Origin: Tranzscheliella williamsii
Lineage: Eukaryota; Basidiomycota; Ustilaginomycetes; Ustilaginales; Ustilaginaceae
Direction: 5' to 3'
Assembly (NCBI GenBank): GCA_023212725.1
Contig: JALBYF010000003.1
Coordinates: forward strand, 466,533 to 530,532
Length of the DNA stretch: 64,000 bases
Positions within the stretch are counted from its first letter, which is position 1. Each line of letters opens with the position of its first letter. Shown here one piece after another: positions 1,653-32,435 of this stretch. A program made the translations under genes and the position numbers. The notes beneath the pieces are model-generated. The model did not search any database. It was not told the DNA's origin and saw only the letters and a list, made by a program, of their open reading frames with translations.

Positions 1653-1756
1653 GTGCCCCGCTGGGCGCATGCATCCTCGTCCGCCTGCCATAGACGTGAT
1701 TGTTCCACCATAGACGGGACATAACAGCATCCAGTGTACCGTACATCCACACCGAC

Positions 1757-6152: not shown

Positions 6153-6158
6153 TATAAA
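6153..6158 (+). promoter_or_regulatory. Candidate TATA box of the tyrosinase gene
   Basis: TATAAA stands 190 bases before the ATG at 6348 and is followed by a strongly pyrimidine-rich leader (about 6170-6300), the usual arrangement for a regulated fungal promoter. A tight TATA promoter would fit a pigment gene that is switched on by stage or stress; this is inference. Confidence 0.5.
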
Positions 6159-6347
6159 GCGGCGTGCTCTCCCAGCGCCCCTCTGCCACGTCCGTGTTTC
6201 CATCTGCTCCCGCCTTGCTCCGTCCCCGTCCCTCCCCTCCCGTTGTTGGCTTGCACACGCTCCTTTCGCCTCCTTCCCGCTAAGACTTTCCTTACCCCTC
6301 CGTACGCACAGACACGCCCACCGGGACGCGCAGACAGGCCGCTCGCC

Positions 6348-11357: not shown

Positions 11358-13847
11358 ATGTCGACTTCTACTTTTCCGAGATCCTATCCCAGCTCAGAAG
11401 CAACCACGCCATGGCATTCGCCCTCTGCTCCTGCCGAGGGGTGGAAGTTCGACTCTTTTCCGTGGCAATCCAAGCAGCGATCTTCACATTCTCCCGACGA
11501 CAACGATCCCGGCCAGCTTGCATCTACCGGTCCTAGTCGCAGGATCAGTCGCAGCTCGCAGCAGTGGTGGGAGGATGTTCTCCCACCAGGTCAACTTTCA
11601 GAGCGGCTTCGCAAAGCGCAGCGCTCCCATTCTTCTTCGCGCCGAAGGTCAACCCCCGCCTTGGCCAATGCTACGCCTTCGGAGAGAAGCGCATGGAAGA
11701 GCCTATCTGGCCTGCCCAGCGACACGTCAAATCTACCCTCAGCCGGGCCATCGACAGCAGCATCAGGCCGAAGAGTCTCAACTTGGAGCAACACCTCGTC
11801 ACACTCAGCATCGTCGCAGCTCAGCGCTTTCAACAGCCTCAGAGGAGACGGCGGCAGTTGCAGCAGTTCCGTCTCGAGCGCCGACGTATCTAGCGACGAA
11901 TACGGCACTTCGCACGGCAGCCACGGTCCGGAGCGTCTTCAGAAGCACCACTTTCCCAGCAGCATGACCAGCTCGCCCGACCCTGCCATCATGTCTTCAT
12001 TTCCCCCACACAGCCTTCAGCACAGCTATGGTCACCAAACTAAGCTTGCGCCTCGACCGCACGCGCACAGCTCGACCTTGGCAGCGCCGTTCCAGTCTGT
12101 AGATCGACCTTCCAGCTCACGGAGGACTCGTATGATGAGTGAGGATGGGTTCAGTTCTGCCACCTTTTCCTCGTCGCAGTCCACAGCAACGAGCACGCTT
12201 CCGCGATCCTTCGCATCGTCACGCTTCTTCAATGGCCAAGCTTCCGCTAGTCACTTCAAAACACATTCCCTGCCTAGCACGCCGGAAGTCAGTTCCGACG
12301 AAAATACCGATGGCAGAAGCTCGAGTACAGCCGCAAACCAGACACATGACATTCGCAGGTCCAGTTCAGGAAGGGCTACCGTCCAATCCTCCCGACTGTC
12401 TTCGCCACCAACCATCTTTCGGTCTAATTTCGATCAGCCTCATCAGCCTCCCTACCGGCTCAGTGCCGAAGATGTCGGCAGACGCAGTCGCCATGTCAGC
12501 TTCGACAGCTACGGCGAAAGCGCTGAGCAAAGCCGCCCCACTTTCCACCAAGGCGCGTCGCCGCAGAGCCCCACGTCGGACTTTGCTAGTCCGCCCACTC
12601 GCGATCACGCTAGCCTGTTCGGTTCACTGCCGCCCAGATCGACCAGTACAAGGCGCACGCGACAAGGTATCCGGACCAACGGGCGCAAGACCGCTAGTTT
12701 CTCCCTTCCCGGCAGCCGCCGAGCATCCCTCCATGAAGACCCGCCCTTTGTCGCCCCTAGTTCGGCCTCGGAAACTTCACAGCGTCCGTATCAGAGGACG
12801 GTTTCTTTGTCCGACGCTGCGCTGCTTGACAGTCTCAACGTTGCCCACAAGCAGTTAGCATCAGCTGGCAACCTGGCCTTGACCTTGACACGCCAGCTTT
12901 CGGCTCCTCTACGGCCCGTCTTCCATCTGACGCTCTTCCTTAGCATCTCCACCATCACTGTGCTTTCTCTGGGATGCTTCTTATTCGCCAGCTATTTGCT
13001 GACGGCCTGGGATGATGTCAGCAAACGCTCGCAGCAAGTAGGCGAGGTGGCAGGCAAAACACGGCACAAAGTCGAGAGCACGCTAGGTTGGGGCATCCGC
13101 ATGCTCGGCTCGGACGACATCCACAGCAGCCAAGACCGAGCCTCTACGGACTCGTCGAAGAGCAGCAATTGCACTACCAACGGTGGAGACCCTGGCCGTA
13201 GCGAGAACGGATCCGGTGGTATGGACACGGCCGAGTCCAAGGCCTCCACTCGGAAGCCGTCCGTGTCTAGCCACTTGCTCTTCTGGCCTGCTCGCATGGC
13301 GTGGTCTAGCACCGGTAGCATCGCACATCGCGTCGTCCCTGCCTCGATCACCAGCTTCTTCTCAGCGAGACATGGTAGCGCTCCGACTAATAAAGCAAAA
13401 GGTGCCGGCGCGGGGCGTCCTGCTTCGTCGTTTCCCCCTCGACCGCCGTTGTCTACGCTGTTGCCCTCTATCGCTTTCACTCTGGTGCTTGCTCTGGGTG
13501 CGGGGTTGGCTAGCTTTTTTGCCTCTCGCAGAGCCGCCGCTGAAGCTGCTGCTGCTGGAGGCGCTGGATCCACCTTTGCCGCACACACTCCACGTAGCGC
13601 ACCATCGGTGGAGGCGTACAGCGTGCCATCGTTTGGCACCAGCACGGGCGCCAGTAGCGCTTACGTACACCTCCCTGCAGCCTCGTCTCTACCTTCGGCC
13701 GGCAGCAGAGCCCATGCCAACCCCACTGGCTCTAGCCGCTACCGTCGCAACGGGAGCGGTGCCGACTTCCACGACCGCGCTGACAAAGACCGCTACCGAC
13801 GCTCCTTTGCCGGCTTCCCGTCTCCCGCTTCCGCCGCCGCGCTCTAG
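11358..13847 (+). CDS. Orphan membrane protein with two hydrophobic segments
   Basis: This is a single exon of 829 residues whose ATG follows a pyrimidine-rich leader. I do not recognise the family. Residues 1-490 are Ser-rich and disordered, with many SS/SP and RRxS patches suited to phosphorylation. A predicted ordered block begins at about 475 (DAALLDSLNVAHKQL), followed by a long hydrophobic stretch at about 520-550 (TLFLSISTITVLSLGCFLFA) and an amphipathic segment to about 580. A second hydrophobic stretch lies at about 698-722 (IAFTLVLALGAGLASFFASR), then an Ala/Ser-rich tail. The roughly 30-residue first hydrophobic stretch could be a hairpin in the ER membrane, but this is only a guess. 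There is no signal peptide. It converges on the nucleoporin gene, whose stop is 349 bases away. Confidence 0.7.
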   Translation: MSTSTFPRSYPSSEATTPWHSPSAPAEGWKFDSFPWQSKQRSSHSPDDNDPGQLASTGPSRRISRSSQQWWEDVLPPGQLSERLRKAQRSHSSSRRRSTPALANATPSERSAWKSLSGLPSDTSNLPSAGPSTAASGRRVSTWSNTSSHSASSQLSAFNSLRGDGGSCSSSVSSADVSSDEYGTSHGSHGPERLQKHHFPSSMTSSPDPAIMSSFPPHSLQHSYGHQTKLAPRPHAHSSTLAAPFQSVDRPSSSRRTRMMSEDGFSSATFSSSQSTATSTLPRSFASSRFFNGQASASHFKTHSLPSTPEVSSDENTDGRSSSTAANQTHDIRRSSSGRATVQSSRLSSPPTIFRSNFDQPHQPPYRLSAEDVGRRSRHVSFDSYGESAEQSRPTFHQGASPQSPTSDFASPPTRDHASLFGSLPPRSTSTRRTRQGIRTNGRKTASFSLPGSRRASLHEDPPFVAPSSASETSQRPYQRTVSLSDAALLDSLNVAHKQLASAGNLALTLTRQLSAPLRPVFHLTLFLSISTITVLSLGCFLFASYLLTAWDDVSKRSQQVGEVAGKTRHKVESTLGWGIRMLGSDDIHSSQDRASTDSSKSSNCTTNGGDPGRSENGSGGMDTAESKASTRKPSVSSHLLFWPARMAWSSTGSIAHRVVPASITSFFSARHGSAPTNKAKGAGAGRPASSFPPRPPLSTLLPSIAFTLVLALGAGLASFFASRRAAAEAAAAGGAGSTFAAHTPRSAPSVEAYSVPSFGTSTGASSAYVHLPAASSLPSAGSRAHANPTGSSRYRRNGSGADFHDRADKDRYRRSFAGFPSPASAAAL

Positions 13848-14196: not shown

Positions 14197-17100
14197 TTAG
14201 CGGCGGCGCTGGCGGAGGGGTTTGATCTGGCGCGCGCCGGGGGAGTTGGGGTTCGGGTTGGCGGGGGGGGCGCCCATGCTGAAGAGGCCGGGGGCGGGGA
14301 GTTGGGCGGGGGGGGTGGCGAAGGCGAAGGGGGCCTGGGACGGGTTCGGGGGCGGCGTGGGGGCGCCGAAGCCGAAACCGGCGGCGGGGGCAGGGGCGGG
14401 GGCGCCAAACTGGAAGGGTTGCCCAGTGGGCGTAGCAGGGGGCGCGCCAAAGGCAAACGGCGAGCCGCCAGGCGTGGTCGGTGCACCCGGCGCCAGAAAC
14501 GGCGACGCGGGCGCCGACCCCGGCGCCGCCCCACCAAATGCCAGCCCCACCCCTGCCCCCGCCGCCGGCGCAGCTGCACCAAAGCTGAAGCCCGTGCCCG
14601 CAGACACCGCCCCCGAAGGCGTCGACGTCCCCGAGCCCCCCCCTGCGCCAAACGTAAAGCCGCTCGAAAAGGACGGCCCCGCCGCGGCAGTAGAGCCTCC
14701 CCCAAACCCTCCCGACGTCGCAGCCGGCGTCCCGTTCGACCCTCCAAAGCCAAAGGAAAGCCCAGCAGGCGCACCAGCCTTCGCAGAGCCATCCGGCGTC
14801 GCCGCTGGGGCAGAAGCGCCAAACGTGAAGGTAGGCGCCATGCTGGTGCCAGGAGTCGGCGCCGTGGACAGACCCGGGTTAGAGGCGGGGAAGGCATTTT
14901 TGTTGCTGCTTCCCTGCGGCGTGTCGTCCATCATCTCCCCGCTTCCGTTGCTGCCACTTCCGGAAGCGGTGGCCTTGGACCCAGACAAGCCAAAACCGCC
15001 GAATCCAATGCCACCGCTGGAGGCATCCTTATTGGTGGCAGGCGCCGCTGAGCCGAATGTAAAGCCACTGCTGGAGGCAGGTTTCGCGGCGTCGTTGGAA
15101 GTAGGGGCAGGCGAGCCAAAGGTAAAGGTGTTGGTCGGCGTAGTGGTCCCAGACCCGGGCGCAGAAGCTGGGTTCTCACCAGAAGCAGGCTTCGGAGCAC
15201 CGAAAGAGAAGCTCGTGGTGCTCGGGGCCGTAGTATCCGTAGAGCCGCCACCGAAGACAAAGTTCGAGGTGCCAGCCGGCTTCGGCGTGTCCTTGCTCTC
15301 CTGTGACTTGGGCGCCCCGAATGAAAATGCAGGGGTGGCGGATGGCGATGCTGCAGCCGGCGAGGCGGATGGCGATGCTGTCAAACTGGGTTCGGGTTTG
15401 CCAAAGTTGAACGGGTTTGCTGTGCCGGCTTTACTGCGGCTGGCGCTTGCTTCAGCGGCGGACTGTCCAAAGGAAAATCCACTCCCCAAGGTGCCAGGGG
15501 CCTCGGAACCGCCGTTGCCTTTGCTGCCGAAGAAGTTCGGAACATCGCTCTTCGACTGATTTGCCACATCCGTAGTCGCGCTGTCTTTCGTCTCCGGTGC
15601 GCCGAACGAGAAAGACCCCAGCGTAGATGGGCCTTTGGGTGTGTCTGGCTTGGATGAAGCGGCCGAACCCGTACCGAAGGCGAAACTGGGCAGACTTTTC
15701 TTGGCAGGTGACTCGGCATCTTCATCAGCCGACCGCTTTGTGTTCGTCGAAGCGCCTTGAGGACCGAAGCTGAAGCTGTTGGAGCTAGCGGTGGCAGCGG
15801 GATTAGCTCCAAAGAAAGAGGGCTTTGCGGCTGGTGCTCCTTGCTTTTGTTCCGGTCCGTCAGAACTTTTGCCAAACGTAACACCGCCGAACATGCCATT
15901 GCTCATCGGCGCAGCAGGGCTGGAATCCGCAGGTTTATTTCCAAAGTTGAAGGCAGGCATATGCTCGGCACTAGCTGGAACAGCAGCGGAAGAAGGTAGT
16001 GACAGGCCACCGGCCGTAGAATTCGGCGCCGCTTCCTTCGCGCCAGAACCACCCGCCTCGGCAGCGTTTGTCTCGAACTTTCCAATGGTGCTGCCAAAGA
16101 AGTTGGGTACCGGGCCATCCTTCTTCGCTTCAGGCAGAAATTTCGACCCAGACTCCAATGGCTTGTTGAAGAAGTCCGAGGCTGGAGGTGCCATCGTCTT
16201 CTTCGGTTCGACGTCCTTCTTCTCTTGATTAGCCGTTGCAGGCGCACTGAAAGAGAACTTTGGAGCGGACGGAGCATCTTTTGTGGGTGCTATGAAGGAG
16301 AACGTGGGTACTGATTTCTTCTCGGTGGGCTCGTCGCTAGTGCTTGAAGAGTCAAACCCACCGAGCCGCCCCAGCAGCGAACCTTCAGAGCTCGAGGCCC
16401 GGGCTGCAGTCTCGTCAGACTTGGCTGATGCGGGTGCCGTGTCTCGAGGCTTGCCAGCATCACCAGACAAAGAGGTCGAGCCAAAGGAGAAACCTGTGGG
16501 AAACATATTCTCAGGAAGCTTGATCTTGGCGAGCTCGCCGGCATCTGGCAAACCTTCTTCGTCCTCATCGTCGTCCCAAGCACTAAATTTGCCCGAGCTT
16601 TGATGAGTACGCGAAGTCTTAGCCGCGCCTTGGCGAAGCGAGCTTTTCTCCCTAGGTGCAGTAGGGTTGGATGTCTTTACAGCGAAATTGTCCCTTTTGA
16701 CCGTACTTGTTGAACCTTTGTTCGCTGCAGACAAAGATATACGATGCGAAGCTGGTTTTGGTGTTTCAGCGGCGGCTGTAGCTGCCGGAGCTTTCATAGG
16801 AGTGGCCTTGAGTGCCGACTTGATAGGGGTCCCATGATCAAGCTTGGAGTTAGAAGGAGCGCTTCCTGAGTCCTTTGTGCTTGGGTCGCGTTGTTGCAGT
16901 CGCCTAGACCGGCGACTGGGTTCTGGCTTGGAAGAATTCGTCTTGTCCCCTCGATCTTCTTCCTCTTCCAGCTCTTTGCTTTCGTTGCTGATGCCGGCGG
17001 TCTGAGGCTCTTCGAAATCCTCATTGTCCTCGTTCATGACAGCAAAAGGAGACGGTACTTGCTGGGACTTCTTGAGCCTTGCTCTCATGCCACTCTGTTC

Positions 17101-18891
17101 AGAGACACTAGGCTGAGCACCTTTGGCCTTCTTTAAAAATCTTGTATAGGGAGCGACACTGATAGGCGCTTTACCTTCCGCAGACTTCGAAAACTTGTTT
17201 TGTGGGATGGACGGGTCCGAGACAGGTGCTGGCACGTGGATTGCGATGGGAGGCGCCTGAGATGACCCCGCAGCGGTGTTAACCCTATTGGCGGGAGCGC
17301 GCATGTTCTCGAGGACATTGAGCAGCCGCTCGGCTTCGTTCTTTGGCGAGGGTGGTCTTGGCTCCCGAGCCTTGAGCTCTTCGTGGCTAATGAAACCGTG
17401 TTCAGGATGCCAGACCATGCGCCTTTTGGACGGCGTCCCCGCTGCACTCTGGCGCTCTGAATCGCCATCGACGCTCATGTCTACGTCTCGCTTGCCTCGT
17501 CGGCTCGGAGTTAGCGAAGCTGTCTCATCCATCACGCTACCCGGCGCCGCCAGGGGCGATGCATTTTGCTGGTATTCATCCGACAAACAGAGGCTTCTCC
17601 GAATAGCTGGGTTGATCCCAGGTAAGGTTCTCGTCGATAGATACTCCTTCATCATTTCATCTCCGACAGATGGAGCAGAAGGGGTAGCCAAATGCATTCC
17701 AGCCCAGTTCCGACGCTGCGGCGTACCTTCCCTAGTTCTCGCCGGAGAGTGTCCGAGAGAAGCAGCAGGAGAGGTGGCTCGGAGACTCATAGGGACAGCT
17801 CCCGCAGACCTACCCGGAGTTGCTGGGTCCGAAAAAAGCGCTGGACCAAGGGTGGTACGCGCTCGTCGCGCAGATCCTCTGCCAGATAATTGAAAGGGTG
17901 AGCTAGATGGAGGAAGACCGAAGGAAGTGTCCGAATAACGCACTTCATTACCGTAGCCGAAGACAGAGGTTGAATGGGTTTGGCTCATAACGGAGCCAGA
18001 TTCCGACATGGCATCATCTGGGCGAAGTGATGAGCCACGGTAATGCAAGATTTGAGAGCGGGGACTGCGTAAAGATTGGTAACCTCTGTCATAAACGGCT
18101 TGAGCCGCCGGAGAGGCGGCGCGACTACCGCTACCTACGACGTCCGACGTGGGATTGCCGATGTCGAGAGTCCGTTTAGAAGCTCGGTTGCTCCAAGACT
18201 GGGCCCCTTGGCGTTGGGGCGTGAGAGCAAAGTGTGGTGAAAGGGACGAAGAAGCCGGCGGTGGGCTTGAAACCCTGGGCGTGGCTGCAAGGTTAGACGT
18301 GGAAGCGGTGCTGGCTAGAGCCAAGGGTGGGGGCCGAAGCTGGCTTTCTTCGTCATCCTTTGCTGGGGGTCGGGATCTCAGACCAGCCGCAAGACGCTCA
18401 CCGACAGCTCTGGCAGCCAATGTTGGCGCATCTTGCTCGGGGTTGTGAGTATCTGTGGTTTTGGCCGAAGCCTGCAATGCTGCTCTCTTGCGGGCAAGGG
18501 AGGAGAGCGATCCAGTGCTGGAGGAAGTAGAGATGCCAAGCATGGGCTGTGTCACAGCAGTGGAGCCAGTGAACCAGGACAAGGGTCTTGAAACCATTTT
18601 CCTGACACTCCCGAGCAATGCAATGGGGGAAGCAGCTGCGCGCAACGGAGAAAAGGGGCTTCTCGGCGGCGCTAGGGACTTGCCAGCAGGAGTAGCAGGG
18701 GGCAAAGCGGAAGTGCCCTGCTCGTTGGGCGGTAGTGATGCTGAGGAACTAGACGTTGTCATCACAGCGCTGTTGGGACGTAGGTAGGGCTTAAGCGATG
18801 AGGTGCGGTTCTGTCGCGCCAGCGTCCGCGAACGTGCAGGCCCAGCCAAAGGCTTGGCTGGGGAGTCGGGATATTGAGAAGGAAAGTCCAT
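14197..18891 (-). CDS. FG-repeat nucleoporin, Nup1/Nup153-like (nuclear basket side)
   Basis: The product has 1564 residues starting at MDFPSQYPDS (18891); the frame stays open 39 codons further upstream, but that part is unlikely coding. Residues 80-107 contain a basic, hydrophobic segment (SPIALLGSVRKMVSRPLSWF) that can form an amphipathic helix, as known for Nup1/Nup60/Nup153 N-termini that bind the inner nuclear membrane. The middle is Ser/Pro-rich, with a conserved-looking patch near residue 495 (RMVWHPEHGFISHEELKARE). From about residue 850 there are dozens of FSFG, FGF and GFG repeats, which bind transport receptors. The protein ends ARQIKPLRQRRR, resembling the basic C-terminal importin-binding tails of yeast Nup1 and vertebrate Nup153. 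The family assignment rests on these three features together; another FG nucleoporin is possible. Confidence 0.85.
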   Translation of the reverse strand: MDFPSQYPDSPAKPLAGPARSRTLARQNRTSSLKPYLRPNSAVMTTSSSSASLPPNEQGTSALPPATPAGKSLAPPRSPFSPLRAAASPIALLGSVRKMVSRPLSWFTGSTAVTQPMLGISTSSSTGSLSSLARKRAALQASAKTTDTHNPEQDAPTLAARAVGERLAAGLRSRPPAKDDEESQLRPPPLALASTASTSNLAATPRVSSPPPASSSLSPHFALTPQRQGAQSWSNRASKRTLDIGNPTSDVVGSGSRAASPAAQAVYDRGYQSLRSPRSQILHYRGSSLRPDDAMSESGSVMSQTHSTSVFGYGNEVRYSDTSFGLPPSSSPFQLSGRGSARRARTTLGPALFSDPATPGRSAGAVPMSLRATSPAASLGHSPARTREGTPQRRNWAGMHLATPSAPSVGDEMMKEYLSTRTLPGINPAIRRSLCLSDEYQQNASPLAAPGSVMDETASLTPSRRGKRDVDMSVDGDSERQSAAGTPSKRRMVWHPEHGFISHEELKAREPRPPSPKNEAERLLNVLENMRAPANRVNTAAGSSQAPPIAIHVPAPVSDPSIPQNKFSKSAEGKAPISVAPYTRFLKKAKGAQPSVSEQSGMRARLKKSQQVPSPFAVMNEDNEDFEEPQTAGISNESKELEEEEDRGDKTNSSKPEPSRRSRRLQQRDPSTKDSGSAPSNSKLDHGTPIKSALKATPMKAPAATAAAETPKPASHRISLSAANKGSTSTVKRDNFAVKTSNPTAPREKSSLRQGAAKTSRTHQSSGKFSAWDDDEDEEGLPDAGELAKIKLPENMFPTGFSFGSTSLSGDAGKPRDTAPASAKSDETAARASSSEGSLLGRLGGFDSSSTSDEPTEKKSVPTFSFIAPTKDAPSAPKFSFSAPATANQEKKDVEPKKTMAPPASDFFNKPLESGSKFLPEAKKDGPVPNFFGSTIGKFETNAAEAGGSGAKEAAPNSTAGGLSLPSSAAVPASAEHMPAFNFGNKPADSSPAAPMSNGMFGGVTFGKSSDGPEQKQGAPAAKPSFFGANPAATASSNSFSFGPQGASTNTKRSADEDAESPAKKSLPSFAFGTGSAASSKPDTPKGPSTLGSFSFGAPETKDSATTDVANQSKSDVPNFFGSKGNGGSEAPGTLGSGFSFGQSAAEASASRSKAGTANPFNFGKPEPSLTASPSASPAAASPSATPAFSFGAPKSQESKDTPKPAGTSNFVFGGGSTDTTAPSTTSFSFGAPKPASGENPASAPGSGTTTPTNTFTFGSPAPTSNDAAKPASSSGFTFGSAAPATNKDASSGGIGFGGFGLSGSKATASGSGSNGSGEMMDDTPQGSSNKNAFPASNPGLSTAPTPGTSMAPTFTFGASAPAATPDGSAKAGAPAGLSFGFGGSNGTPAATSGGFGGGSTAAAGPSFSSGFTFGAGGGSGTSTPSGAVSAGTGFSFGAAAPAAGAGVGLAFGGAAPGSAPASPFLAPGAPTTPGGSPFAFGAPPATPTGQPFQFGAPAPAPAAGFGFGAPTPPPNPSQAPFAFATPPAQLPAPGLFSMGAPPANPNPNSPGARQIKPLRQRRR

Positions 18892-19815
18892 CGTTACGTC
18901 GATAACACGGGAGACGAAGAACAGAAGAGGCAGAAGCGATGAGCGAAACCGGCAAGAGAGGCGGATGTGGCCGGGAAGATGTTCCAGTGAGACAAAAATG
19001 AGAAGCAATACGGCGCGGTTGATGGATCAAGCTCAACCCTCACGGCGCTTTCTAGGTCGAGAGGCGGTCCAGTGTTCGCTAGATCTGCGTGGCGCCAAAG
19101 ACGATGAGGAGGGTAGGGAGTTGGTTGGTCGCGGTGATAAAAAGGAAGAAGTGTGAGTGAGCACTGACAAGTGGGATCGTCTTTGCCTCGCGGGTGTTGA
19201 TCAAAATTCAAGTTTCAAATCAAGAAAAATGACGACGCGGAATCGCAGCGCCTTCATGATGAAGTACTCACACGCACTGAATGTATACAACGAGCTGCCA
19301 ATTCTCGATACAAGCAATAAAACCACGGTGGATGTGCTTTCGTATGGACTTACCGTAACTCCACTTAAGACTTCGACGGAGGTATTTCGATCGTGGTCAC
19401 ACGAGTTGCATTTTGGCTGAACAAAATCATAGCGCACACACACATACACACACACACACACGCCCCTACACGGACATACATACACTGTGCCTGTCGAAAA
19501 GCCTACCTTTACTTCAAGGGCGACATACTCCGGATGTTCAGATGCTTGAGTGTGGCGAAGCTGATCGCGTTAGATGCGTTTGCTAGGTGTTGGCGCGAAT
19601 GAGTTTCAAGATTTAAGCCCTGACGTATCCCGATGGCGTATAGCGTACTCCCGATCGCGCTAAACAGACAAGATGGCTACCTCGAGCACGCACCAGGTCC
19701 AGCATGCTTGCCACCACCCAACGAGTGACGCCAACGTCCATCACCACTCATCCACGGAACCGCTTGACAACCAGATAGTAATTACATTGTACAGGTAGTC
19801 GACTGGCTTTCCAAC
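18892..19815. other. Divergent promoter region, nucleoporin / TMEM256-like gene
   Basis: This is the shared upstream region of two divergent genes. It holds a CA microsatellite (19435-19461). No coding frame with support is seen. Confidence 0.55.
19435..19461 (+). repeat. CA-dinucleotide microsatellite
   Basis: A run of CA repeats is interrupted once by a T (CACATACACA). It sits between the nucleoporin and TMEM256-like genes, closer to the latter. Confidence 0.9.
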
Positions 19816-21512: not shown

Positions 21513-23117
21513 ATCATGTCTCGTCCCTTGCTTGACATGTAGCAGCTCCCATGGTGTTAGAATAATCAGCATCCGACTGCCAAAACCCACTGCCCAACCA
21601 GCGAGAAGCCGTGAAGTGCATCTCACGTGTTGTGGTAATAGAAGAGCGTCTGTGCTTCATCAGTCTCGTCCGTCTTATCAAGGGTCGGTACATGTGCCCT
21701 ACGGCCGAGAGGCTTGCGGTGGAGTCATTTATCACTACTCGTCCTGTGAGAAAATGCCGTCAGCTCGCCATTCGCTTCACCCCATAGCTTCGAAATGATG
21801 TTGCGAGCTCGTCTCGTCCTTGCGTTTTTGAGCTGGCGATTTTTCACCAGCACAAGGCTATTGATGCTTCTGATCCACTAAGGGCAAGCTATCATGGCTT
21901 GTAAAGCTGGCGTCGATCCTAGGACACGTATGACCTGGCCGTGTTCGCAGTCCTCTTACCCGACTAGATTTGGTGTGGTGACGGAAGTACCATGTTTTAG
22001 CGATCTGACAATAGCCAAAATGTATCGGAAGATGGCCCGGCGAGTGTGAGTTACGCGTCCGACCTAGGAATACACGGAGACAAGCCGACGTACGGAACGG
22101 GAAGCGCCTCACTCGAAAATCAAATGTCAGAGAGAGAAGGCTTGCAGAATCATTAAATCTTGGATGTATCAGAAACAGGATCTGAACAGAATTGAAATAG
22201 AGGCGTGCATGTTGGTTGATCAAGATGCTGTAATGGAGATCTGTCCACGTTCGCAGTTTAGTCGCTGATTCTTGTCAGGAATGGCTCTCCACGATGGCGA
22301 ACGTGGACACGATCGTGTGAGGCGGGCCCTTCGCTTGCCGTTGCTCACGCGCCTTGCTGCTTTCACAAGATGTGAGCAGAGTAGGATTCTACTGCAGCCC
22401 TCATGTAGCAATAGCTATGGCTGAATGCTTGCGCTAGGGCCCACTACGTGACGATAAAGAAGCGGAGGCTGAGCTGCAGACAGTCACGCTGACAACGTCG
22501 GATGGCGCCGTCGCTGCAGTTCAGGCTAGACGCTTAGCGGATGAAGGAACAGTTGCGGAGATGCCGAGTCCCCAGTAATGAGCTAAAGAAATGTTGACTT
22601 GAGTTTCTGCCAAAGCAGCAGGATGTGCCGTGAACAAGAGCAAGCAAGATGGGAGCTGCCCTTCCCTTCTAAGACTATGCGCTCTTCAGACTCGATCGTG
22701 TGCTCACGCTGCTGCACTGACATCAAGCCCCGCCTTATTCTTGTTGCTGCGCCCCTCTTCCTCGCCTTGTTCGTCATCACCGCCTCGTCCACTGCTGGCT
22801 TTACTCCCCACGACCCAAACAAGACGCTTTATTCATACTATTGCTTCCTTCACATACGACCGCTACCGAAAACCAAGAACAGAGTACCGCCACCGTGCTT
22901 CATGGCCGAGTCTTGACGCTGACCATTCACCTACACATTCACGTACACAAGTGATCTTCTTGATTGTTGTATCTGATCTCACGCCACCTTTCGATTGCAT
23001 TGTCCGATTGGATTGGCCTGGGCAAGGAGCCTTTATCGTGAGCTGAGGCGTCGCCCAGCTAGCCTTCGCTGTTGTCTCAATTTCCACATCTGAGCTCGTC
23101 GGATCAACGTCTCTAGC
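21513..23117. other. Long upstream region of the bHLH gene
   Basis: These 1.6 kb contain no recognised gene. The last 500 bases are pyrimidine-rich and probably include the bHLH gene's leader. A perfect CACGTG palindrome, the class-B bHLH target, is present at 21624-21629. Importantly, no upstream frame encodes the N-terminal part of an acyl-CoA synthetase, so the enzyme-like domain in the next gene is not a mis-split full enzyme. Confidence 0.55.
21624..21629. promoter_or_regulatory. Perfect E-box CACGTG upstream of the bHLH gene
   Basis: CACGTG lies about 1.5 kb before the bHLH start codon. The factor encoded downstream has the His-Glu-Arg signature that reads this site, so self-regulation is possible. 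The motif is short and other copies exist in the window, so chance is a fair alternative. Confidence 0.25.
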
Positions 23118-25610
23118 ATGCCGTATAGAGGCTATCCGACATCTTCCCCGTCGATGGGAGCTATCACCAATGGCAGCTCGTATCAGCGTAGCGATGCTGA
23201 CCTGACAACAATTCAGCCTTCAGCCCAGCCTTTGCAACCGGCTCGCAACGGCTCTCTCGCCTCAAGCTCTTCCAGCATTGCTGGCTATGAGCAGATCGAG
23301 TACGAAGGAAACATCCTGGTATCTACAAACCTGGAGAACCACCTGGCCGGCAATCACCTCGTGAGAGACTGCGCCGTGGTCGGGGTGCCGCAGCCAGGTG
23401 GCCTGGCTTCCACATTTTACAATAGGCACCCGCCCTTGCCAGAGACCTCGCCTATTGCTTTTGTAGCTCTTAGTGTCTCAGGAAGGGATCGATCCGCTAA
23501 GGGAGGTGACAAAGAGACCAAGCGGATGAAGACGGAGCTGGTCAACTGGCTTGTTGACTTCGCTCCTGCTTTCAAACGAATGAAGGGCAATTTGGTCTTT
23601 GTTGACTCCATCCCACGGGGACCTTCTGGAGTAGTCGTCAGAAAGGCGCTCATCGACAAAGCGCAATCGTCAGCAACATTGCCACGAAGTGGGCCAAGCA
23701 AAGGCTTCTTCACTACTGTCCTGCCCGAACCGACGTCGTCTGCTGCTGCGACAACCAAGGCTGAGGGAGTCGACCATCCTCTTAATGCCTCCCCGCCGAA
23801 GAAGGTGGTACGGGACTCTAAGCGTCGCGCTACACACAGCCAGATCGAGCGCCGGAGACGCGAGAAGATCAACGACCGGCTCGTCACGTTACGGTCCATT
23901 GTGCCTGCGTGTGCTAAAGAGCTTGAAGACCGGCGCAGACAGAAGCAGGAAGAAGAGGAGGAAGCTGCCCGGATCGCAGCAGGCGGGGCACCCAAGACCT
24001 ATATCGACGCTGCTACTGGCAAACCTAAGCGTAAGCGAAACAGGAAGAAACCAGAAGCGAAGAAGGCCGGAAGTGACAAGGAGGAAGAGCTTGGGTTGCA
24101 CAAGCTTGAGGTCTTGACCCACGCTATCAATTACATCTTCGATCTCAAGGCCAGGATCTACCAACTCGAAACCGGATCAGCACCCGACCACATTCCTACC
24201 GCTGATAACCCCTTTGGAGCCAAAAATGGTGACGGGACATACAGGCAAGATGCTAAGGTCGAAGATGAGCCTGGAGACGGTGTCACAGCCGCTGCAGCTT
24301 TTATGACAGCGTTTGGAGAACTCCAGCGAGACCGGAAGCACTTACCAATTCGAAAGCGAAGTGCAATTTCAGACAATGAAGATGATGCTGAAGACGAAGA
24401 CGAAGATGGGGAAGAAGAGGAGGAAGATCAGATCCAAGACGAGCAGGACGAGATAGAAGATGAAGAGAAGGATGAAGATGAGGTTCCAGAGCGTCGGGCG
24501 AAGAAGCATATGAGGGCAGCCGATCATCATCTCAAGTCCCAGCCGGGACATCGAGCAGTCAATTTGTCTTCGACCAGCTCCTCAGCATCGCTTCTTCGAC
24601 CACATCACAGCAACTACTCTTCTTCGTCGAGCCGTGAAAGCGAAGACTCGTCTCCGGTCTTTTCAATCTCTCAGCAAAGCCCACTCATAGTTTCCCCTGC
24701 AACCACAATCTCCTCGCCAATGATGAGCCTTTCAGCAGAGTCACCGCTCTTCTTGCCCGACCCTGCCATCGGGAGTAAACGCCCAGCATTTCCGCCACTA
24801 CCAGCGTCTGCCCTGCCTCTGCCGTCGGGCCAAGCACCTCTGCAATCGACTCGACGCGAGTCAAGCAGCTTCCTTTTCAAGCAGCTGAGCTTGACATCAC
24901 CTAGCTTCACTCCTTTTAATTCACTGTCCTACTCGACTTCACTTGGAAGCAATGGAAGGTCCAGGTCTTCGACGCTGGCATTTCCCGCCTACGGCGAGGA
25001 CTCAGAAGTCCGCGAAACTTCGACTGTTCCTGGCTCGGCATCAACCCGTCAAGCTTCGCCGGCAGTAACTAGTGTTTTTAATGCGGTGTCCGAGGGCAGG
25101 GAGTCAACAACGACCCAGAGCATCCCTGGATTGTCGGACCAGAACGCGAAAACGTGTGAGGAGCCCAGCGACGCATCTGCCGCCGCGCTTCTTCTGAATT
25201 TCTCGACGTCACCGGAAGTGTTGCGTCCGGTCGGAAGCGCGGCGGGTTCCTCCCACCGCTCATCGAGTGTGGCATGCTCGCCTCACAGCCGTCCTACCGT
25301 GGGCTTGGCCAGTCGCGCTAGCCGCTCCTCCTTCACCTCCCCGCAGTATAGGCCCACCACAAAGAAACTGCACCCCCCTGCATCTTCGAGCATCCACATT
25401 TACAATTCCGCGCCCGGAGGCGCCTCGGCGCTGGTGCTGGAAGGAACCGAGCACCCTGTCGAGGCTCTAGACTTGGGTTCGCCCCCTCTCCTGGCCCTCG
25501 ATGCCAGTCCCGACGATGAGAAAATGGAGGACTTCCTATCCGATAACACTCTCGAAGACGGTCCCGCCACCCGCGCCATCCAATCGGACGCTACGGAACT
25601 CGATGCCTGA
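23118..25610 (+). CDS. bHLH transcription factor fused to an acyl-CoA-synthetase C-terminal domain
   Basis: A single exon of 830 residues with no stop between the two domains. Residues 59-183 match the AMP-binding_C domain of adenylate-forming enzymes: YEQIEYEG corresponds to the hinge strand, NLENHL to the L-E-x-x-L helix, RDCAVVGVP to the D-A-A-V-V-G-V-P strand, and FKRMKGNLVFVDSIPRGPSG to the K-R-x-x-x-x-x-F-V-x-x-I-P-x-x-P-S-G segment. The catalytic lysine of P-x-S-G-K is Val172, so adenylation is unlikely. Residues 235-352 form a bHLH: basic region THSQIERRRREKIND with His240, Glu244 and Arg248 (class B, CACGTG-type), a roughly 55-residue charged loop, then helix 2 GLHKLEVLTHAINYIFDLKA. 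An acidic run (about 420-460) and a Ser-rich tail follow. It is presumably a nuclear regulator; a role in sensing acyl or aryl metabolites is only a hypothesis. Confidence 0.88.
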   Translation: MPYRGYPTSSPSMGAITNGSSYQRSDADLTTIQPSAQPLQPARNGSLASSSSSIAGYEQIEYEGNILVSTNLENHLAGNHLVRDCAVVGVPQPGGLASTFYNRHPPLPETSPIAFVALSVSGRDRSAKGGDKETKRMKTELVNWLVDFAPAFKRMKGNLVFVDSIPRGPSGVVVRKALIDKAQSSATLPRSGPSKGFFTTVLPEPTSSAAATTKAEGVDHPLNASPPKKVVRDSKRRATHSQIERRRREKINDRLVTLRSIVPACAKELEDRRRQKQEEEEEAARIAAGGAPKTYIDAATGKPKRKRNRKKPEAKKAGSDKEEELGLHKLEVLTHAINYIFDLKARIYQLETGSAPDHIPTADNPFGAKNGDGTYRQDAKVEDEPGDGVTAAAAFMTAFGELQRDRKHLPIRKRSAISDNEDDAEDEDEDGEEEEEDQIQDEQDEIEDEEKDEDEVPERRAKKHMRAADHHLKSQPGHRAVNLSSTSSSASLLRPHHSNYSSSSSRESEDSSPVFSISQQSPLIVSPATTISSPMMSLSAESPLFLPDPAIGSKRPAFPPLPASALPLPSGQAPLQSTRRESSSFLFKQLSLTSPSFTPFNSLSYSTSLGSNGRSRSSTLAFPAYGEDSEVRETSTVPGSASTRQASPAVTSVFNAVSEGRESTTTQSIPGLSDQNAKTCEEPSDASAAALLLNFSTSPEVLRPVGSAAGSSHRSSSVACSPHSRPTVGLASRASRSSFTSPQYRPTTKKLHPPASSSIHIYNSAPGGASALVLEGTEHPVEALDLGSPPLLALDASPDDEKMEDFLSDNTLEDGPATRAIQSDATELDA

Positions 25611-25966: not shown

Positions 25967-28900
25967 CTAGGCAAAGTGGTCCCAGTCCCACCGGACAAAC
26001 TCGAGCATGTATTCGTCGATCAGCCCGCCCTCGTCGTCTTCTTCCTGGTCTCCTTCTTCGGGAGCCGTTGCGGGCGCGTTCGAAAGTGCGCCAGGTTCGA
26101 CCGGAACGGGAGTGCCCGTGTCATCGCGGCTGTTGCTCTCCTGCGGCTGCGCTCGTGCACCGCTCGTTTGCTGCTCGGCGAAGTCGGAATCGTCAACGAA
26201 CATCTCCTGTCTCGCAGCGAGCGCTGCCTGTCGGTCCTCCTCGTCCTCGGCGTCCAAGAACGCCTTTTCGACGTCCCGTCCGCTCCCCTCCGCAGCCTCA
26301 GTGGCTGCCACTTCAACGTCGCCGAGCCTGCCACCTTCGTCGAGCATGTCCCTCCAGTCGATCCGCTTGGTCATCGACTCTGTGTTGAACTCTCCTTCTT
26401 GGATAACAACGCTGTCCAAGAGCCTCTTCTGATTGGCCTTTCGCAGCATGTTCTCTTCAATGGTATGCTCGGTCACGAAACGGTAGATGTGGACATCCCT
26501 TGTTTGGCCAATCCGATGGGCTCGATCCATGCACTGAGCCTCGATGGCTGCGTTCCAGTCTAGGTCATAGAACAACACGGTGTCAGCTCCGGTCAAGTTG
26601 ATACCAAGTCCTCCGGATCGCGTCGACAAAATGAAAGCAGAAATACGGAGATCGCGATTGAACTTTTCTGTCAGTGCTTGACGCTGTTCCACCTTGGTAG
26701 CTCCGTCGAGCCTAAGGTAACGGTAGCCATGGAAGTTAAGGAACGACTCCAGGATGTCCAAGACTCTAGTCATCTGGGTAAATATGAGGATTCGATGCCC
26801 GCCTTCCTTCAGCCGTCGCATCAGAATGTCGAGCTGCTGAAGTTTGCCGCAGTCGAACTGCAGCAGAGAAGCATCGGGAAATGCGATATGGAGCTTTACA
26901 GCAACGGGGTGCAATATGTCGAACTCGGGCCGGACGATCGCGGGACATTGGTACGGTTCAAGCCCGGCAAGCGCCCAGCGCGGCATGTCCACAGCAACGG
27001 CGCGCGGAGTGGCAAAGGCAAACCTGTCGATCAGAGGTTGCATCTCTTCACGTCGAAGAGCATAAGATTTTATAGGACGGAGGACACTGTCGCACCGATT
27101 GAGGTAGTTCTTGCGGTCATTCTCGAAGCACTCAAGGGGAAGGAGACGCTGGCTTTCACCTGCCTGTCGAAGAAGTGAAAGAAGCCCAGAGCCATAGATG
27201 GGCCGTTTCGTACATCGATACTGATTGATGTAGGCTGAATGGTTCCACTTCTCCATGCTCACTATCTTGTTGCGCTCTTGACGGGTCGCAGCAAAATTTT
27301 CCAAGGACCATGTATCCAGATCAGGAAGTGTGGGAATCGCTTCTCCGAAATAGGGAAGCTTCTTCGAAGCATTAAGTTTACGCAAGCTCCTCGACTCTAT
27401 GGCCGTGAGAGTCTCCTCATCCCCGGTGATTCTAAAGTTAGTCACATCGAGGTCTACTTTGGCCCTTCCGTCTTCTTGCAGCAGCATCCTCCGGACCAAA
27501 AGATCCTTGATCTCAAAGTCGGCGACAGCCGCCCTTTGCATTGCAAAGCTGGTGACAATCGGCCGTACTTCGAAAAGATCGGGATGATTGCAGACTTTTC
27601 GTAACTGCATGAGGCAGTTGATGATGCTGAGATAGTTCCCGCTAGCTAGACTCTCCCTCGTTTTGGCCCTGGACATAAAATCGTTGTAGAGGAACCGCTG
27701 GCGCTTTGAAAGACGGCAGGTGATGACATGCTCGTACTTGCTGGGCAACTCTTTTTCAACCTCGCTCTTTAGACGACGCAATAGATAGGGACGCAAAACT
27801 GTATGTAACTTCACCACCATTGCGCGGGTCTCTTCGCTCATGCTTTCGCCACCCTCAATAGCTTTGTCCAGGGGATTTGAAAACCATTCTTGAAAGTCCT
27901 TCATGTTGGCAAACGCTCCGCCACCAGGCAAGTCAGCGACACCGTGAGGCATGAGGAAGTACATCAACGACCAGAGGTCCATTAAATTGTTCTGCAATGG
28001 GGTCCCCGTGAGCAATAGGCGGCGTTGGGAATTGAATCCCAACAGTGTCTGCCAACGCTGAGAGCGGAAGTTCTTGATGTGATGTGCCTCATCCAGCACC
28101 AAGTAGACCCATGGCTTGCGCCGGAAGATATGTTGGTCGGCTAATACGAGCTGGTAGCTCGTGATGCAGACGTTGAAGCTGTTTTCTGTGTTCCATCCCA
28201 CTCGCTTTTCTTTGCGCTCTCGTTGGTTTCCGTAATACGAGAGGATCTTGAAGCCAGGTAGAAACTTCTTGAACTCGACTTCCCAGTTCAACATGACACT
28301 GGTCGGAGCCACGACCAGATGAGGTCCCCAAACGCCTTTGTCACACGCCAAATGAGCGAGTACAGAGATTGTCTGGATCGTCTTTCCGAGACCCATCTCG
28401 TCTGCTAGGATGCCGTTGACGTTGTTCGCGTACAGACTAGCCAGCCATTCGAAGCCAATCTGCTGGTAAGGCCGCAGTTGACCTCGAAGCAAGAATGGCT
28501 GTCGAGACTTCGCCGTCGTACGGTCCGACGCAACAATAGAAGAAGCGCGTGTGATGGATCGACGATTGCTTCTGCGGCCACTTGTCGCTGCAGAATCCGT
28601 GTCACTTTGGTCTCCGACAGGCGGATCTTCTTCGTTGTGTGCCGGAGTGAACGGTGAAGCCGTTGTAACATCATTCGCGTGCGATTCCGAGTGCAGATCT
28701 CCGTCACTCGTGCTGACAACTGCGTCTGCATACCCTTGAGCCCTTGTGCCGACATCTGTCTCCGTGTCCTTCTGTTCATCCTCGCCTTCGCCCACAGCAG
28801 CTTCATCTTGACCATATCCGTAGCGCTTCAGCAGCTCTTCGATGGGAATGTCGGCATCCGCTGCGAGTCCAGCATCTTCGCTATCATCGTCCTGGTCGTC

Positions 28901-31345
28901 TTCCAGCATCTGCCGTTCAAGCTCTTCGTCTTCTTGTGCTTGATCGTCCCCCTTGATGGAAAATTCAACATCGTTGAGGTCAGGATCGGTTGTGCTGGAC
29001 TGAGTAGATGAAGTGACCCTCGGACGCATGCCTCGACGAGGCCGTGCTGGCCTGTCCGCTACGCCTTCTTCAGGTGACGGACTAGAACCCCTGGGTAGAG
29101 CATCCTGCTCAGCGGGTGATCCGACGGAAGACATTTCTTTTGAGCTAGCGCTCATTCTGCCTGCCGTTGTCGAATATATCTCTGATTTCCGAAGGGTGGG
29201 GTTTTCACTGTCATTTCCATCATACACCACCCCATATTCGTCGTCATCTGTCTCCGGTGCTTGCTGGGAAGTATCACTGTCCGAGGTTACGTCACTGAGC
29301 TCGGCATCTTGTTCCTGCTCATCGCTGTCGTACAGAGTGCGCTCGCTCCTGCTGTCATCGCCGCTGTCAGCTCGGGCCATTTCTTCACGTTGTTTGCGAA
29401 GCAAGGCCGTGCTCTGCTCCAGGATGGCGTTGAGTTGCTCTTTGTCCAGCTTCTGTTTTTCGGCCTTTTCAGCAGCTGCTTTTTGTGCGCGAATAATGTT
29501 GACTGCCAAGCGCCATTGCTTCGCCACTTCTCTCGCTGTCCACTTGGCAAGAGCTCGTATCCGCTTTTCTTCGGCCTTCCTCTCCCGTTCTGAAGACCCT
29601 GACTGTCTTTCCCAATACTGCGCAACCATTCGTGCAATTTTTTTGGCGATCTGTTGTCTGCTCCTGGCGGTTTGTCGCATCGACTGATAGCCTGTTGCAA
29701 CCGAGTCAAGCAGACGGTCATAATGCGTCTTTTTACGCAGACTGTTGGGTGCTGCTTGACGAGCAGTCCGCGAGAGACTGCCTTCCGTCAGAAGACCGTT
29801 GCGCCTGCCCTTGTCAATGTTGAGATATGAAGAAAGCTCTGATTGCTCCGAACTTATCGCAGGCCCTTCAGTATCGTCATAGAGGAGATTGAATGACTTC
29901 CAGTAAGACTCAAGGTCCCCACCGAAACGGCTCGGTGCGCATATTTGATGCGGAGCGAGGATGTGAAAAGGCGGCGGTTCGGTCGGTAGCGGTCTTGGCA
30001 TGTGACGTAAGATAAAGTCGTCAAGACTTTCCACCTTCTTGCTCTTCTTTCGCTGCCGTATAGGTTTGGACGTGGTGGTTTGGTCAGCCTGGTCAAGGGT
30101 CTTCCCTTTACGTGACGTAGGCGCCGGCGATTTTTTGAAGGATCTCGAGCCTGTAACCTCAGCCTCATCCTCAACACTGCCATCGGTACTGCTACCTTCT
30201 CCTTCGAGACCTGTAGTCTTCTTTACGCCGTTGTTGCGTGGTGAATCGACAATGCTCAAGGAACGTCTGTTGCGCTTGCGGGAGGCATCCCGACTCGATT
30301 GGCTGACAAGAGGGGATGGAGGTGCTGTTCGCTTCAGCGACAGACTTTCGAGTCGAGCGTTAACCCGTCTTCGAGTGACTCTGCCCGACGTGGATGAGGC
30401 AGAATTGTGATCCGGATCCAAGCTGAAACGGAGATCATGAGCTTGTTTGAACGTTGTGAAAACGTCGCTCTGATCCTGACGTGCGACGTCAGGATCATAG
30501 CCAACCATGGTGACAAATTTAGTCAAATGAAAGAGCTCGCGCACGAGCATATCGTGATCATCATGGACATCTTCCAATTCGGACTGTGCTAAGGCAATTT
30601 TCTCGATTCTCCGCTTCGCAAGCACCTCCAGGAAAGGTGAACGCGCAGTTGCAGGAGTGATAGGAGGCTTGTTGCGGACAGGTGGTAAGATTGGCACGAG
30701 CTCACTTGGGGATGAGTCTTCGGGTGGCTCGCTGGTTGAGGCGGACGTGCTTCGCGACTTGTCCCTATCTGGCTGGTTAGAGAGTTCACTTATCGGTATA
30801 GTCATATCGATTGAAGGTGATGAGTTAAGATTTGGCTTTCTGGAGCCTAACGTTGTTGCCAACGAGAGATTTTTCGGTATCTCCGTTTCGGTTCGGCGAT
30901 GAAGTTCGCTTTGATCTGTCTCGAAATATTGCATGTCAGCGCTCTCGTCTTCAGAGACTGGACTGCGTCGATTACTGATTCCGTTTCCATTTGAGTGACT
31001 CAGACTCCTCCGGGCTCGTAGCGAACGTGGCCGACGACTTGCGTCTGATACATCGCCATCTCTGTCGCTAGGAGCGTCTCTTTCCTCACTGATCCTGAAA
31101 GCTGGGCCTGGGCTGGAGAATGCGAGCTCGGCACCCGATTTCCTCTTCTTTTGACGAGGCTTCAATTCTGTAGCGGGGTCTTCGATGTGGGGCCGCGCTT
31201 CGGAGTCTATGGTTCGAGTGTCGGCTTGCAGCCTGGAAGGGCCAGCCTCAGAGGAAGCATGCCTTTCCCCATTGCAGCTGTGATCTCCGTCTACAGTGCC
31301 GGCATGTTGTGAAGCAATTTGCCGAGGAGACTCGCCCGAGTACAT
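25967..31345 (-). CDS. SWR1: Swr1, catalytic ATPase of the SWR1 chromatin remodeller
   Basis: A single-exon protein of 1792 residues. Swr1 exchanges H2A-H2B for H2A.Z-H2B at promoters, in the nucleus, within a large complex. Residues 1-540 are disordered and charged. An HSA-type helix (about 540-650, rich in RQQIAKKIARMVAQYWE-like sequence) should bind actin and Arp4. After an acidic region, the SNF2 ATPase starts near 955 with LRPYQQIGFEWLASLY; Walker A is DEMGLGKT near 980 and the DEAH box near 1083. The long insertion typical of the INO80/SWR1 class separates it from the helicase C lobe at about 1510-1640, with LIFTQMTRVLDILE and the arginine-finger motif DRAHRIGQ. The sequence around the ATPase is closest to yeast Swr1 rather than Ino80 (for example GVWGPHLVVAPTSVMLNWEV). 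The tail is acidic. The start is the first ATG of the frame. Confidence 0.96.
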   Translation of the reverse strand: MYSGESPRQIASQHAGTVDGDHSCNGERHASSEAGPSRLQADTRTIDSEARPHIEDPATELKPRQKKRKSGAELAFSSPGPAFRISEERDAPSDRDGDVSDASRRPRSLRARRSLSHSNGNGISNRRSPVSEDESADMQYFETDQSELHRRTETEIPKNLSLATTLGSRKPNLNSSPSIDMTIPISELSNQPDRDKSRSTSASTSEPPEDSSPSELVPILPPVRNKPPITPATARSPFLEVLAKRRIEKIALAQSELEDVHDDHDMLVRELFHLTKFVTMVGYDPDVARQDQSDVFTTFKQAHDLRFSLDPDHNSASSTSGRVTRRRVNARLESLSLKRTAPPSPLVSQSSRDASRKRNRRSLSIVDSPRNNGVKKTTGLEGEGSSTDGSVEDEAEVTGSRSFKKSPAPTSRKGKTLDQADQTTTSKPIRQRKKSKKVESLDDFILRHMPRPLPTEPPPFHILAPHQICAPSRFGGDLESYWKSFNLLYDDTEGPAISSEQSELSSYLNIDKGRRNGLLTEGSLSRTARQAAPNSLRKKTHYDRLLDSVATGYQSMRQTARSRQQIAKKIARMVAQYWERQSGSSERERKAEEKRIRALAKWTAREVAKQWRLAVNIIRAQKAAAEKAEKQKLDKEQLNAILEQSTALLRKQREEMARADSGDDSRSERTLYDSDEQEQDAELSDVTSDSDTSQQAPETDDDEYGVVYDGNDSENPTLRKSEIYSTTAGRMSASSKEMSSVGSPAEQDALPRGSSPSPEEGVADRPARPRRGMRPRVTSSTQSSTTDPDLNDVEFSIKGDDQAQEDEELERQMLEDDQDDDSEDAGLAADADIPIEELLKRYGYGQDEAAVGEGEDEQKDTETDVGTRAQGYADAVVSTSDGDLHSESHANDVTTASPFTPAHNEEDPPVGDQSDTDSAATSGRRSNRRSITRASSIVASDRTTAKSRQPFLLRGQLRPYQQIGFEWLASLYANNVNGILADEMGLGKTIQTISVLAHLACDKGVWGPHLVVAPTSVMLNWEVEFKKFLPGFKILSYYGNQRERKEKRVGWNTENSFNVCITSYQLVLADQHIFRRKPWVYLVLDEAHHIKNFRSQRWQTLLGFNSQRRLLLTGTPLQNNLMDLWSLMYFLMPHGVADLPGGGAFANMKDFQEWFSNPLDKAIEGGESMSEETRAMVVKLHTVLRPYLLRRLKSEVEKELPSKYEHVITCRLSKRQRFLYNDFMSRAKTRESLASGNYLSIINCLMQLRKVCNHPDLFEVRPIVTSFAMQRAAVADFEIKDLLVRRMLLQEDGRAKVDLDVTNFRITGDEETLTAIESRSLRKLNASKKLPYFGEAIPTLPDLDTWSLENFAATRQERNKIVSMEKWNHSAYINQYRCTKRPIYGSGLLSLLRQAGESQRLLPLECFENDRKNYLNRCDSVLRPIKSYALRREEMQPLIDRFAFATPRAVAVDMPRWALAGLEPYQCPAIVRPEFDILHPVAVKLHIAFPDASLLQFDCGKLQQLDILMRRLKEGGHRILIFTQMTRVLDILESFLNFHGYRYLRLDGATKVEQRQALTEKFNRDLRISAFILSTRSGGLGINLTGADTVLFYDLDWNAAIEAQCMDRAHRIGQTRDVHIYRFVTEHTIEENMLRKANQKRLLDSVVIQEGEFNTESMTKRIDWRDMLDEGGRLGDVEVAATEAAEGSGRDVEKAFLDAEDEEDRQAALAARQEMFVDDSDFAEQQTSGARAQPQESNSRDDTGTPVPVEPGALSNAPATAPEEGDQEEDDEGGLIDEYMLEFVRWDWDHFA

Positions 31346-32435
31346 GGAGTATGGCCCAGTTTGAACCTTGAGTTGCCTCGAGCGAGCTCTGGCTGGTCGA
31401 AAAAACGGATCTGATAGACGATTGGCGCTCGCTGACTATGGGACTTGCTGTGTGGTAGAAAGATCAGATTTGTGGTGGCGCATCGGCTCGTTGATTGTAT
31501 CGGCTGGATGCAAAGGAAAGTAGCTGCAGCTTCCTACTGCGCAACACCAACGCTCAAAGAAGGGCTGTGAATCAGGCGATTGAAGTCTAGACGCAGTGGA
31601 ACAATCGAGCTTTCGGGAAGGCCGGGAGCGGTGCTGGATGACGTGAGAATCGATGCGACTAAGCTAGTCATGTACAGCCTTTGCTGTAGTCTGCAGCTTC
31701 TGTGGTGCAAGCAAAAGGCGATAGGCTGCCCGAACAAGTTTGAGCGAGAGCAGCACAGCTCAAGGCACCGGATAGGTGGGAGTCGAAGAAGCGACAATTG
31801 TCTCAGTAGTCAAGAACGGCTGGTGAATAAGTAGCGGGACGAGCGAGGACAGAGTTGTTGAAGCCAAGACAAGATCAGGCAGTGGTGGTGTAGTACATAG
31901 AGCGCCGGGGATGTCGTCCTGATCAGCGTCAACAACCGGAAGGTTAGAGCCATGAACCCGTCCTGTCTTGTCATACTCAATAATAATCGACGGTATCCAA
32001 TAGACAACTTTAGCGTGAATTGCCCATCAGTACAACTCTGTTGATTGTATCAAATAAGGATACGTTAAACATGTAATCCAGCGTTTCCCGCCTATGTGTC
32101 GTGAACGTCTATTTACATAGCCTTTTTTCGCCCACAATTTCTAGCTAATTAAATAAGCTTTTCTTTAGCACATTTTTTGTGCTGTTAATGCATGCCCGGT
32201 GGATGTGGAGCTCGTGATTCAAGACTAATACCGCTTACCGCTTGGACCAGCAGCAATGTTGACAGCCGTCCTTCGAGACCAACATCGAATCTCCTTCGAA
32301 CTATAGATGCGCCATTACAGCGCCATCGCAACGCATGCACCAAACCAGTCCTCTACTCCTTCACCTTCTTCCGACGCCAAAATAGATATAACGCCGCCAA
32401 CGCTTATTTCACGACAAAGCAGAAACATTACCAAG
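31346..32435. other. Divergent region SWR1 / Dabb gene, with an AT-rich core
   Basis: No gene is recognised. About 32030-32200 is clearly AT-rich compared with the rest of the window and includes a short inverted repeat (32167-32183, AGCACA/TGTGCT around a T-run). It could be a promoter core, a replication origin or simply an unconstrained spacer. Confidence 0.5.

Follow-up and report, generated by a model that had tools for sequence, protein, structure and literature searches.

A ligase-derived C-domain without its catalytic lysine precedes a bHLH domain in a smut fungus gene, with a degenerate full-length counterpart in Violaceomyces

How does a single reading frame come to hold the C-terminal domain of an adenylate-forming enzyme followed by a basic helix–loop–helix (bHLH) DNA-binding domain, and what could the enzyme part be doing there? 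The question is raised by a gene in a 64,000-nt stretch of Tranzscheliella williamsii contig JALBYF010000003.1 (assembly GCA_023212725.1, forward-strand positions 466,533–530,532), the whole of which we call the window. An uninterrupted plus-strand frame spans 23094–25610, and the methionine at 23118, which agrees in our alignment with the starts of most complete-looking relatives, opens an 830-residue translation. The original prediction for this locus, an AMP-binding_C-like domain and a bHLH encoded in one uninterrupted frame, was confirmed. We lean towards reading the product as a bHLH factor of Ustilaginomycotina that carries a dead C-domain, like that of 4-coumarate:CoA ligase (4CL), at its N-terminus as a protein-interaction module. 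Its main parts are as follows.

23118..25610, plus strand: coding sequence of the fusion regulator, a single exon of 830 aa plus stop (open frame and translation)
23292..23666, plus strand: AMP-binding_C-like domain, residues 59–183, of 4CL-type ligase origin and without the catalytic lysine
23805..24173, plus strand: bHLH domain, residues 230–352, with the class-B-type basic region H240/E244/R248 (PF00010 match and invariant residues)

The Pfam family AMP-binding_C (PF13193) matched residues 72–171 with an E-value of 7.1e-5 and 24.1 bits, just under the curated threshold of 24.5; among ten relatives, two scored over this threshold, four under it and four gave no match at E ≤ 1. Because the score is borderline, we built an enzyme-only C-domain profile from this genome's other ligases only (24 rows, with some genes entered twice), which matched the window protein at 35.3 bits and E 4.5e-11 (among 51 proteins). 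In a phmmer search of solved structures, a long-chain fatty-acyl-CoA synthetase (7kyd) and a luciferase (6abh) matched the C-domain, and the predicted structure has the ANL C-domain fold, with the domain core predicted at high confidence. The enzyme-only profile and the predicted fold bear out the assignment to AMP-binding_C. The domain shares its fold, element order, A8 and A10 motif positions and closest sequence relatives with the PF13193 C-domains of ANL enzymes (4CL, acyl-CoA synthetases, luciferase), but differs from those enzymes in lacking the N-domain and the lysine, and in having an extended GRERSAxGGDKESKRMK helix, a variable insert (residues 92–109) and a fused bHLH. Three elements within or at the edge of the domain matter for what follows.

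23289..23315, plus strand: A8 hinge loop, residues 58–66, EQIEYEGNI, where ligase homology starts (profile entry column 500 of 643; mean majority fraction 0.65, 17 rows)
23475..23561, plus strand: extended helix, residues 120–148, VSGRDRSAKGGDKETKRMKTELVNWLVDF (helix 68–96 of the structure model; majority fractions; alignment with the ligase L006)
23631..23633, plus strand: Val172 at the catalytic lysine position of the P-x-S-G-K (A10) motif (alignment, 21 rows)

The domain presumably makes no adenylate. As had been claimed, valine stands in place of the catalytic lysine; the 21 aligned members have V T S S S S S S A S I A T A A S H L S K R at this position, with lysine in one row (Exobasidium P0028) and arginine in another (P0029), the alignment being insecure for P0026 and P0027. 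The N-terminal adenylation domain, also said to be missing from the gene, is missing from the whole window: tblastn with residues 1–480 of P0025, 1–292 of P0028 and 1–312 of P0029 returned the known C-domain only (E 0.007–0.008), everything else in the window having E 0.12 or worse. With the catalytic lysine lost and the N-terminal AMP-binding domain absent, the window protein does not qualify as a functional ANL enzyme.

The second domain is equally recognizable. Pfam HLH (PF00010) matched residues 236–268 with E 8.6e-9 and 35.5 bits (threshold 20.7) over profile positions 1–29 of 53, and the best matches of the bHLH among solved structures, by phmmer, were USF1 and USF2. Class B is assigned from residues of the basic region, and H240, E244 and R248 are invariant in all 21 aligned rows, so the proposed fusion of a class-B-type bHLH to the C-domain stands. 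The bHLH presumably binds CACGTG-type E-boxes as a dimer, and from the basic region alone we infer control of E-box genes.

Three homolog searches yielded at least 50 distinct relatives (44 of 7986, 13 of 7988 and 50 of 7983 scored candidates, those sharing most words). A C-domain profile of the family matched 25 of the 50 retrieved relatives, up to 20 of which had helped to build it, and the independent enzyme-only profile placed 24 of 51 proteins, the window protein included, above the inclusion threshold. The same two-domain order is found in Sporisorium, Pseudozyma, Kalmanozyma, Ustilago, Thecaphora and Violaceomyces, in agreement with the expectation that other genera would carry the fusion. 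The named relatives belong to Ustilaginomycotina (confirmed by look-up for four species), except Sporobolomyces P0049 and a fern record, P0034. The latter, recorded under Adiantum nelumboides, has 76% identity with Meira miltonrushii P0030 and is placed among Meira-like rows in the tree described below, which points to fungal contamination of the fern assembly. Many relatives are predictions from contigs and may be shortened by introns or contig ends; P0010, P0014 and P0017 start within the C-domain.

These gene models bear on whether the fusion is an annotation artefact, either two genes or a gene whose C-domain is removed by an intron. In the Ustilago hordei group the public models do skip the C-domain, but the window frame is uninterrupted and contains no donor-like pentamer in 23118–23300, on which grounds we rejected both a separate C-domain gene and an intron upstream. 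Fused models also occur in Ustilaginales, Urocystidales and Violaceomycetales, and in the Violaceomyces model a full ligase and the bHLH are co-linear. We consider an artefact highly improbable.

The origin of the domain is best seen in Violaceomyces palustris, where the gene model of the ortholog P0025 (1357 aa) has an entire degenerate ligase ahead of the same bHLH. Pfam finds PF00501 at 80.5 bits and HLH in P0025, with PF13193 at 17.1 bits, below its cut-off, and the protein aligns with residues 64–705 of the window protein at 36% identity over 719 columns. As a query on the T. williamsii genome, P0025 matched one ligase, L006, at 133 bits (residues 12–543) and the next at 26 bits, in a search that ran exon by exon and so somewhat disadvantaged intron-bearing ligases. 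L006 (locus G000:C2:276533-278191, minus strand, coding sequence 3195–1273) is a 4CL-like ligase that is intact: its gene has a single 99-base intron, and the protein has the full FSSGTTGLPKG loop, IPKTASGKILRR, an intact SGK lysine and a C-terminal SKL, a peroxisomal signal; its closest solved relatives in the PDB are 4-coumarate:CoA ligases. With its intron removed, L006 is co-linear with P0025 over 591 aligned columns (26% identity, E 2.5e-50). The P-loop reads FPSHSGQL in P0025 against FSSGTTGLPKG in L006 and the P0025 lysine position holds histidine, while TGD and a glutamate in the A5 motif are retained.

When placed on a joint profile of L006 and P0025, the window C-domain enters at column 500 of 643, at the A8 hinge, and P0003, P0016 and P0022 enter at column 499. 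L006, in the genome the nearest ligase to the Violaceomyces pseudo-ligase, shares the RxxxGGxxE stretch of the extended helix with the window domain; unlike the window protein it has an intact P-loop, the SGK lysine and the C-terminal SKL, and no DNA-binding part. Spliced L006 also ranked first among this genome's ligases by C-domain (46.3 bits against 36.9 for the next), the others being scored unspliced. As a guide to the substrate of L006 we considered HcsA of Aspergillus niger, described in PMC8140964 as a hydroxycinnamate-CoA synthase, predicted to be peroxisomal, with homologs there that include Fat1. There was no evidence for orthology of L006 and HcsA, and therefore no substrate is assigned.

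Searches for a second full-length ligase–bHLH fusion found none among the matches listed with P0025 residues 1–770 (at least 13 proteins including P0025; 7988 scored candidates) or in the alignment search (at least 50; 7983), each search reaching only as far as the candidates with the most shared words. The original prediction knew of no described fungal regulator of this build, and none appeared among the titles and abstract openings listed from the open-licence literature, a scope that most subscription journals lie outside; the passage of PMC3502508 found by term search says nothing on a ligase–bHLH fusion.

The amount of ligase that remains differs among lineages. Two Exobasidium-type proteins, P0028 and P0029, probably keep the ligase from about the A5 motif onward: blastp aligned P0025 with P0029 over 263 columns (E 9e-9), and PF00501 scored 13.5 bits in P0028 (cut-off 29.9). 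We grade this partial ligase as only probable because the structure prediction for P0029 was poor. In a midpoint-rooted tree built from 51 rows of the bHLH region, every one of the 26 rows that carry a ligase part fell inside one 39-row clade (98/98), which divides into 11 Exobasidium-type rows (86/83) and a Ustilaginomycetes clade of 28 rows (100/98), in which P0025 is the first branch. Outside the 39-row clade lie Tilletia, Microstromatales and Sporobolomyces relatives, all without the ligase part. The tree has several long branches and open forks, which make its details unsure.

The simplest history, and one supported by these comparisons, would be a single fusion followed by loss of catalysis and N-terminal erosion. 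In a common ancestor of Exobasidium and Ustilaginomycetes, a copy of a whole 4CL-type ligase would have become an in-frame 5′ extension of a bHLH gene; the fused ligase would then have lost catalysis and been cut back repeatedly from its N-terminus, leaving the window lineage with only the part past the A8 hinge. The window domain appears to be all that survives of an entire ligase, one that Violaceomyces still has in degenerate full-length form.

What the remnant might do can be approached from its conservation, which we measured between segments in 16 rows (Ustilaginales type plus Thecaphora) and within the domain in 17 rows (P0025 added). The C-domain has a mean pairwise identity of 0.65 with 96% of columns aligned, compared with 0.34 and 74% for the N-terminal linker, 0.66 and 84% for the linker at residues 184–229, and 0.58 and 66% for the tail; the basic region and first helix of the bHLH reach an identity of 0.95. 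Inside the domain, the mean majority fraction is 0.80–0.83 in the core strands and the N-terminal half of the extended helix (0.83 in that half) and 0.76 in its C-terminal half, falling to 0.65 in the hinge loop, 0.52 in the insert and under 0.5 at the lysine position. This pattern is compatible with a module that has stayed folded more for the sake of its surface than for catalysis. The hinge loop and lysine site vary more than the fold core and extended helix do, and for this reason a role as a protein-interaction module seems to us more likely than catalysis or ligand sensing. Such a module would act by docking, most likely via the GRERSAxGGDKESKRMK helix, and would recruit or restrain a partner of the DNA-bound bHLH dimer. 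A domain of this kind alone in complex with a protein partner is recorded, by entry title, in PDB 4u5y, where an acetyl-CoA synthetase C-domain is found with a GNAT acetyltransferase. The window domain, unlike that one, does not have the lysine. In the 4u5y complex this lysine is reportedly the acetylation target.

Several observations weigh against our preferred reading or the history behind it. The A10 element is conserved overall (0.77). Unspliced L006 (31.3 bits) falls behind two other ligases, so the C-domain alone does not single out L006 and the ranking is not like for like. The tree outgroups sit awkwardly with their taxonomy: they are usually classed with Exobasidium in Exobasidiomycetes, and the age of the fusion is uncertain for that reason. 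Thirteen of the 39 clade rows have no ligase part, Meira among them, and a taxonomy look-up placed both Meira and Exobasidium in Exobasidiales. Models of P0018, P0021, P0023 and P0045 (Ustilago sp. UG-2017a, hordei, nuda and tritici) lack the C-domain, an MLYS start being joined straight to the linker or bHLH, which means either that this lineage lost the domain or that the models have an error in common; the Pseudozyma flocculosa model lacks the first part of the domain.

The patchiness of the ligase part in these models and clade rows, its varying extent between lineages and the occurrence of bHLH-only relatives outside the clade are also what one would expect of a slowly decaying ligase relic, tolerated at the N-terminus of a bHLH protein without a role of its own. 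We regard this as a serious rival, although a less probable one. Such a relic is harder to reconcile with an intact window frame, with a C-domain so much better aligned and conserved than the N-terminal linker, with a core predicted at high confidence and with an extended helix that varies less than the hinge loop and lysine site do.

The original prediction had instead proposed possible binding of a CoA thioester, AMP or a partner synthetase, which the lower conservation of the hinge loop and lysine position and the absence of the N-domain do not support. In ANL enzymes the N-domain holds AMP and substrate, and the window protein has a lone C-domain; ligand sensing is less likely because the N-domain is gone, and the C-domain by itself would probably not bind CoA, AMP or an acyl ligand. 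A role as metabolite sensor, in which the pseudo-ligase part binds AMP, CoA or acyl/aryl-CoA and tunes the bHLH, would suit an ancestor that was a CoA ligase of the 4CL type and a Violaceomyces protein that keeps the whole pseudo-ligase, with TGD and the A5 glutamate. Against this, the part that would hold adenylate and acyl group is lost from the window protein, hinge and lysine positions vary, and the P-loop is broken even in P0025; we think such sensing quite unlikely. A combined and speculative scheme, also improbable in our view, is that the captured ligase became a pseudoenzyme receptor, its ancestral form still sensing an acyl- or aryl-CoA (perhaps a plant phenolic) in lineages like Violaceomyces while the smut C-domain docks an active ligase or acyltransferase. 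If true, it would tie CoA-ester metabolism directly to E-box genes.

Intermediate stages are seldom found for regulators that arose through the capture of an entire metabolic enzyme. In these related fungi the same bHLH is preceded by a full pseudo-ligase, by a probable partial one or by a single domain, the window's own genome contains an enzyme that is intact and related to the parent, and the series offers a test case for a catalytic domain turning regulatory. The finding is real, and gains interest over the first reading since both a form that looks ancestral and an enzyme related to the parent can be pointed to. It also carries a warning that gene models may have excised the N-terminal domain of a smut regulator.

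Beyond the C-domain, two further features set the window protein apart from other class-B-type bHLH regulators (USF1 and USF2; also MAX, MITF and Tye7), with which it has the H-E-R basic region and HLH match in common.

23922..24080, plus strand: long conserved charged bHLH loop of ~53 aa, residues 269–321 (mean pairwise identity 0.87, 16 rows)
25188..25229, plus strand: conserved tail motif LLLNFSTSPEVLRP, residues 691–704 (alignment)

The second half of the loop has a low predicted local distance difference test (pLDDT) score in the predicted structure; by eye, the loop of a bHLH paralog in L007 is apparently long too. The tail motif, which reads LLYFSTSPELRP in Sporobolomyces P0049, is a possible activation motif. 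Base composition would predict ~20 CACGTG sites in the window, where 10 are present; L006 has none, and these counts give no evidence of targets.

Elsewhere in the window, the frames 14200–19026 (minus strand), 11352–13844 (plus) and 1700–4405 (plus), of 1609, 831 and 902 aa, have no Pfam match at 1e-5. The 892-residue frame at 5703–8378 (plus strand) has a tyrosinase domain at residues 607–807 and no other Pfam match at that level. The neighbouring gene at 25970–31435 (minus strand) lies tail-to-tail with the fusion gene and encodes HSA, SNF2 and helicase domains, an order that we take to be SWR1/INO80-type.
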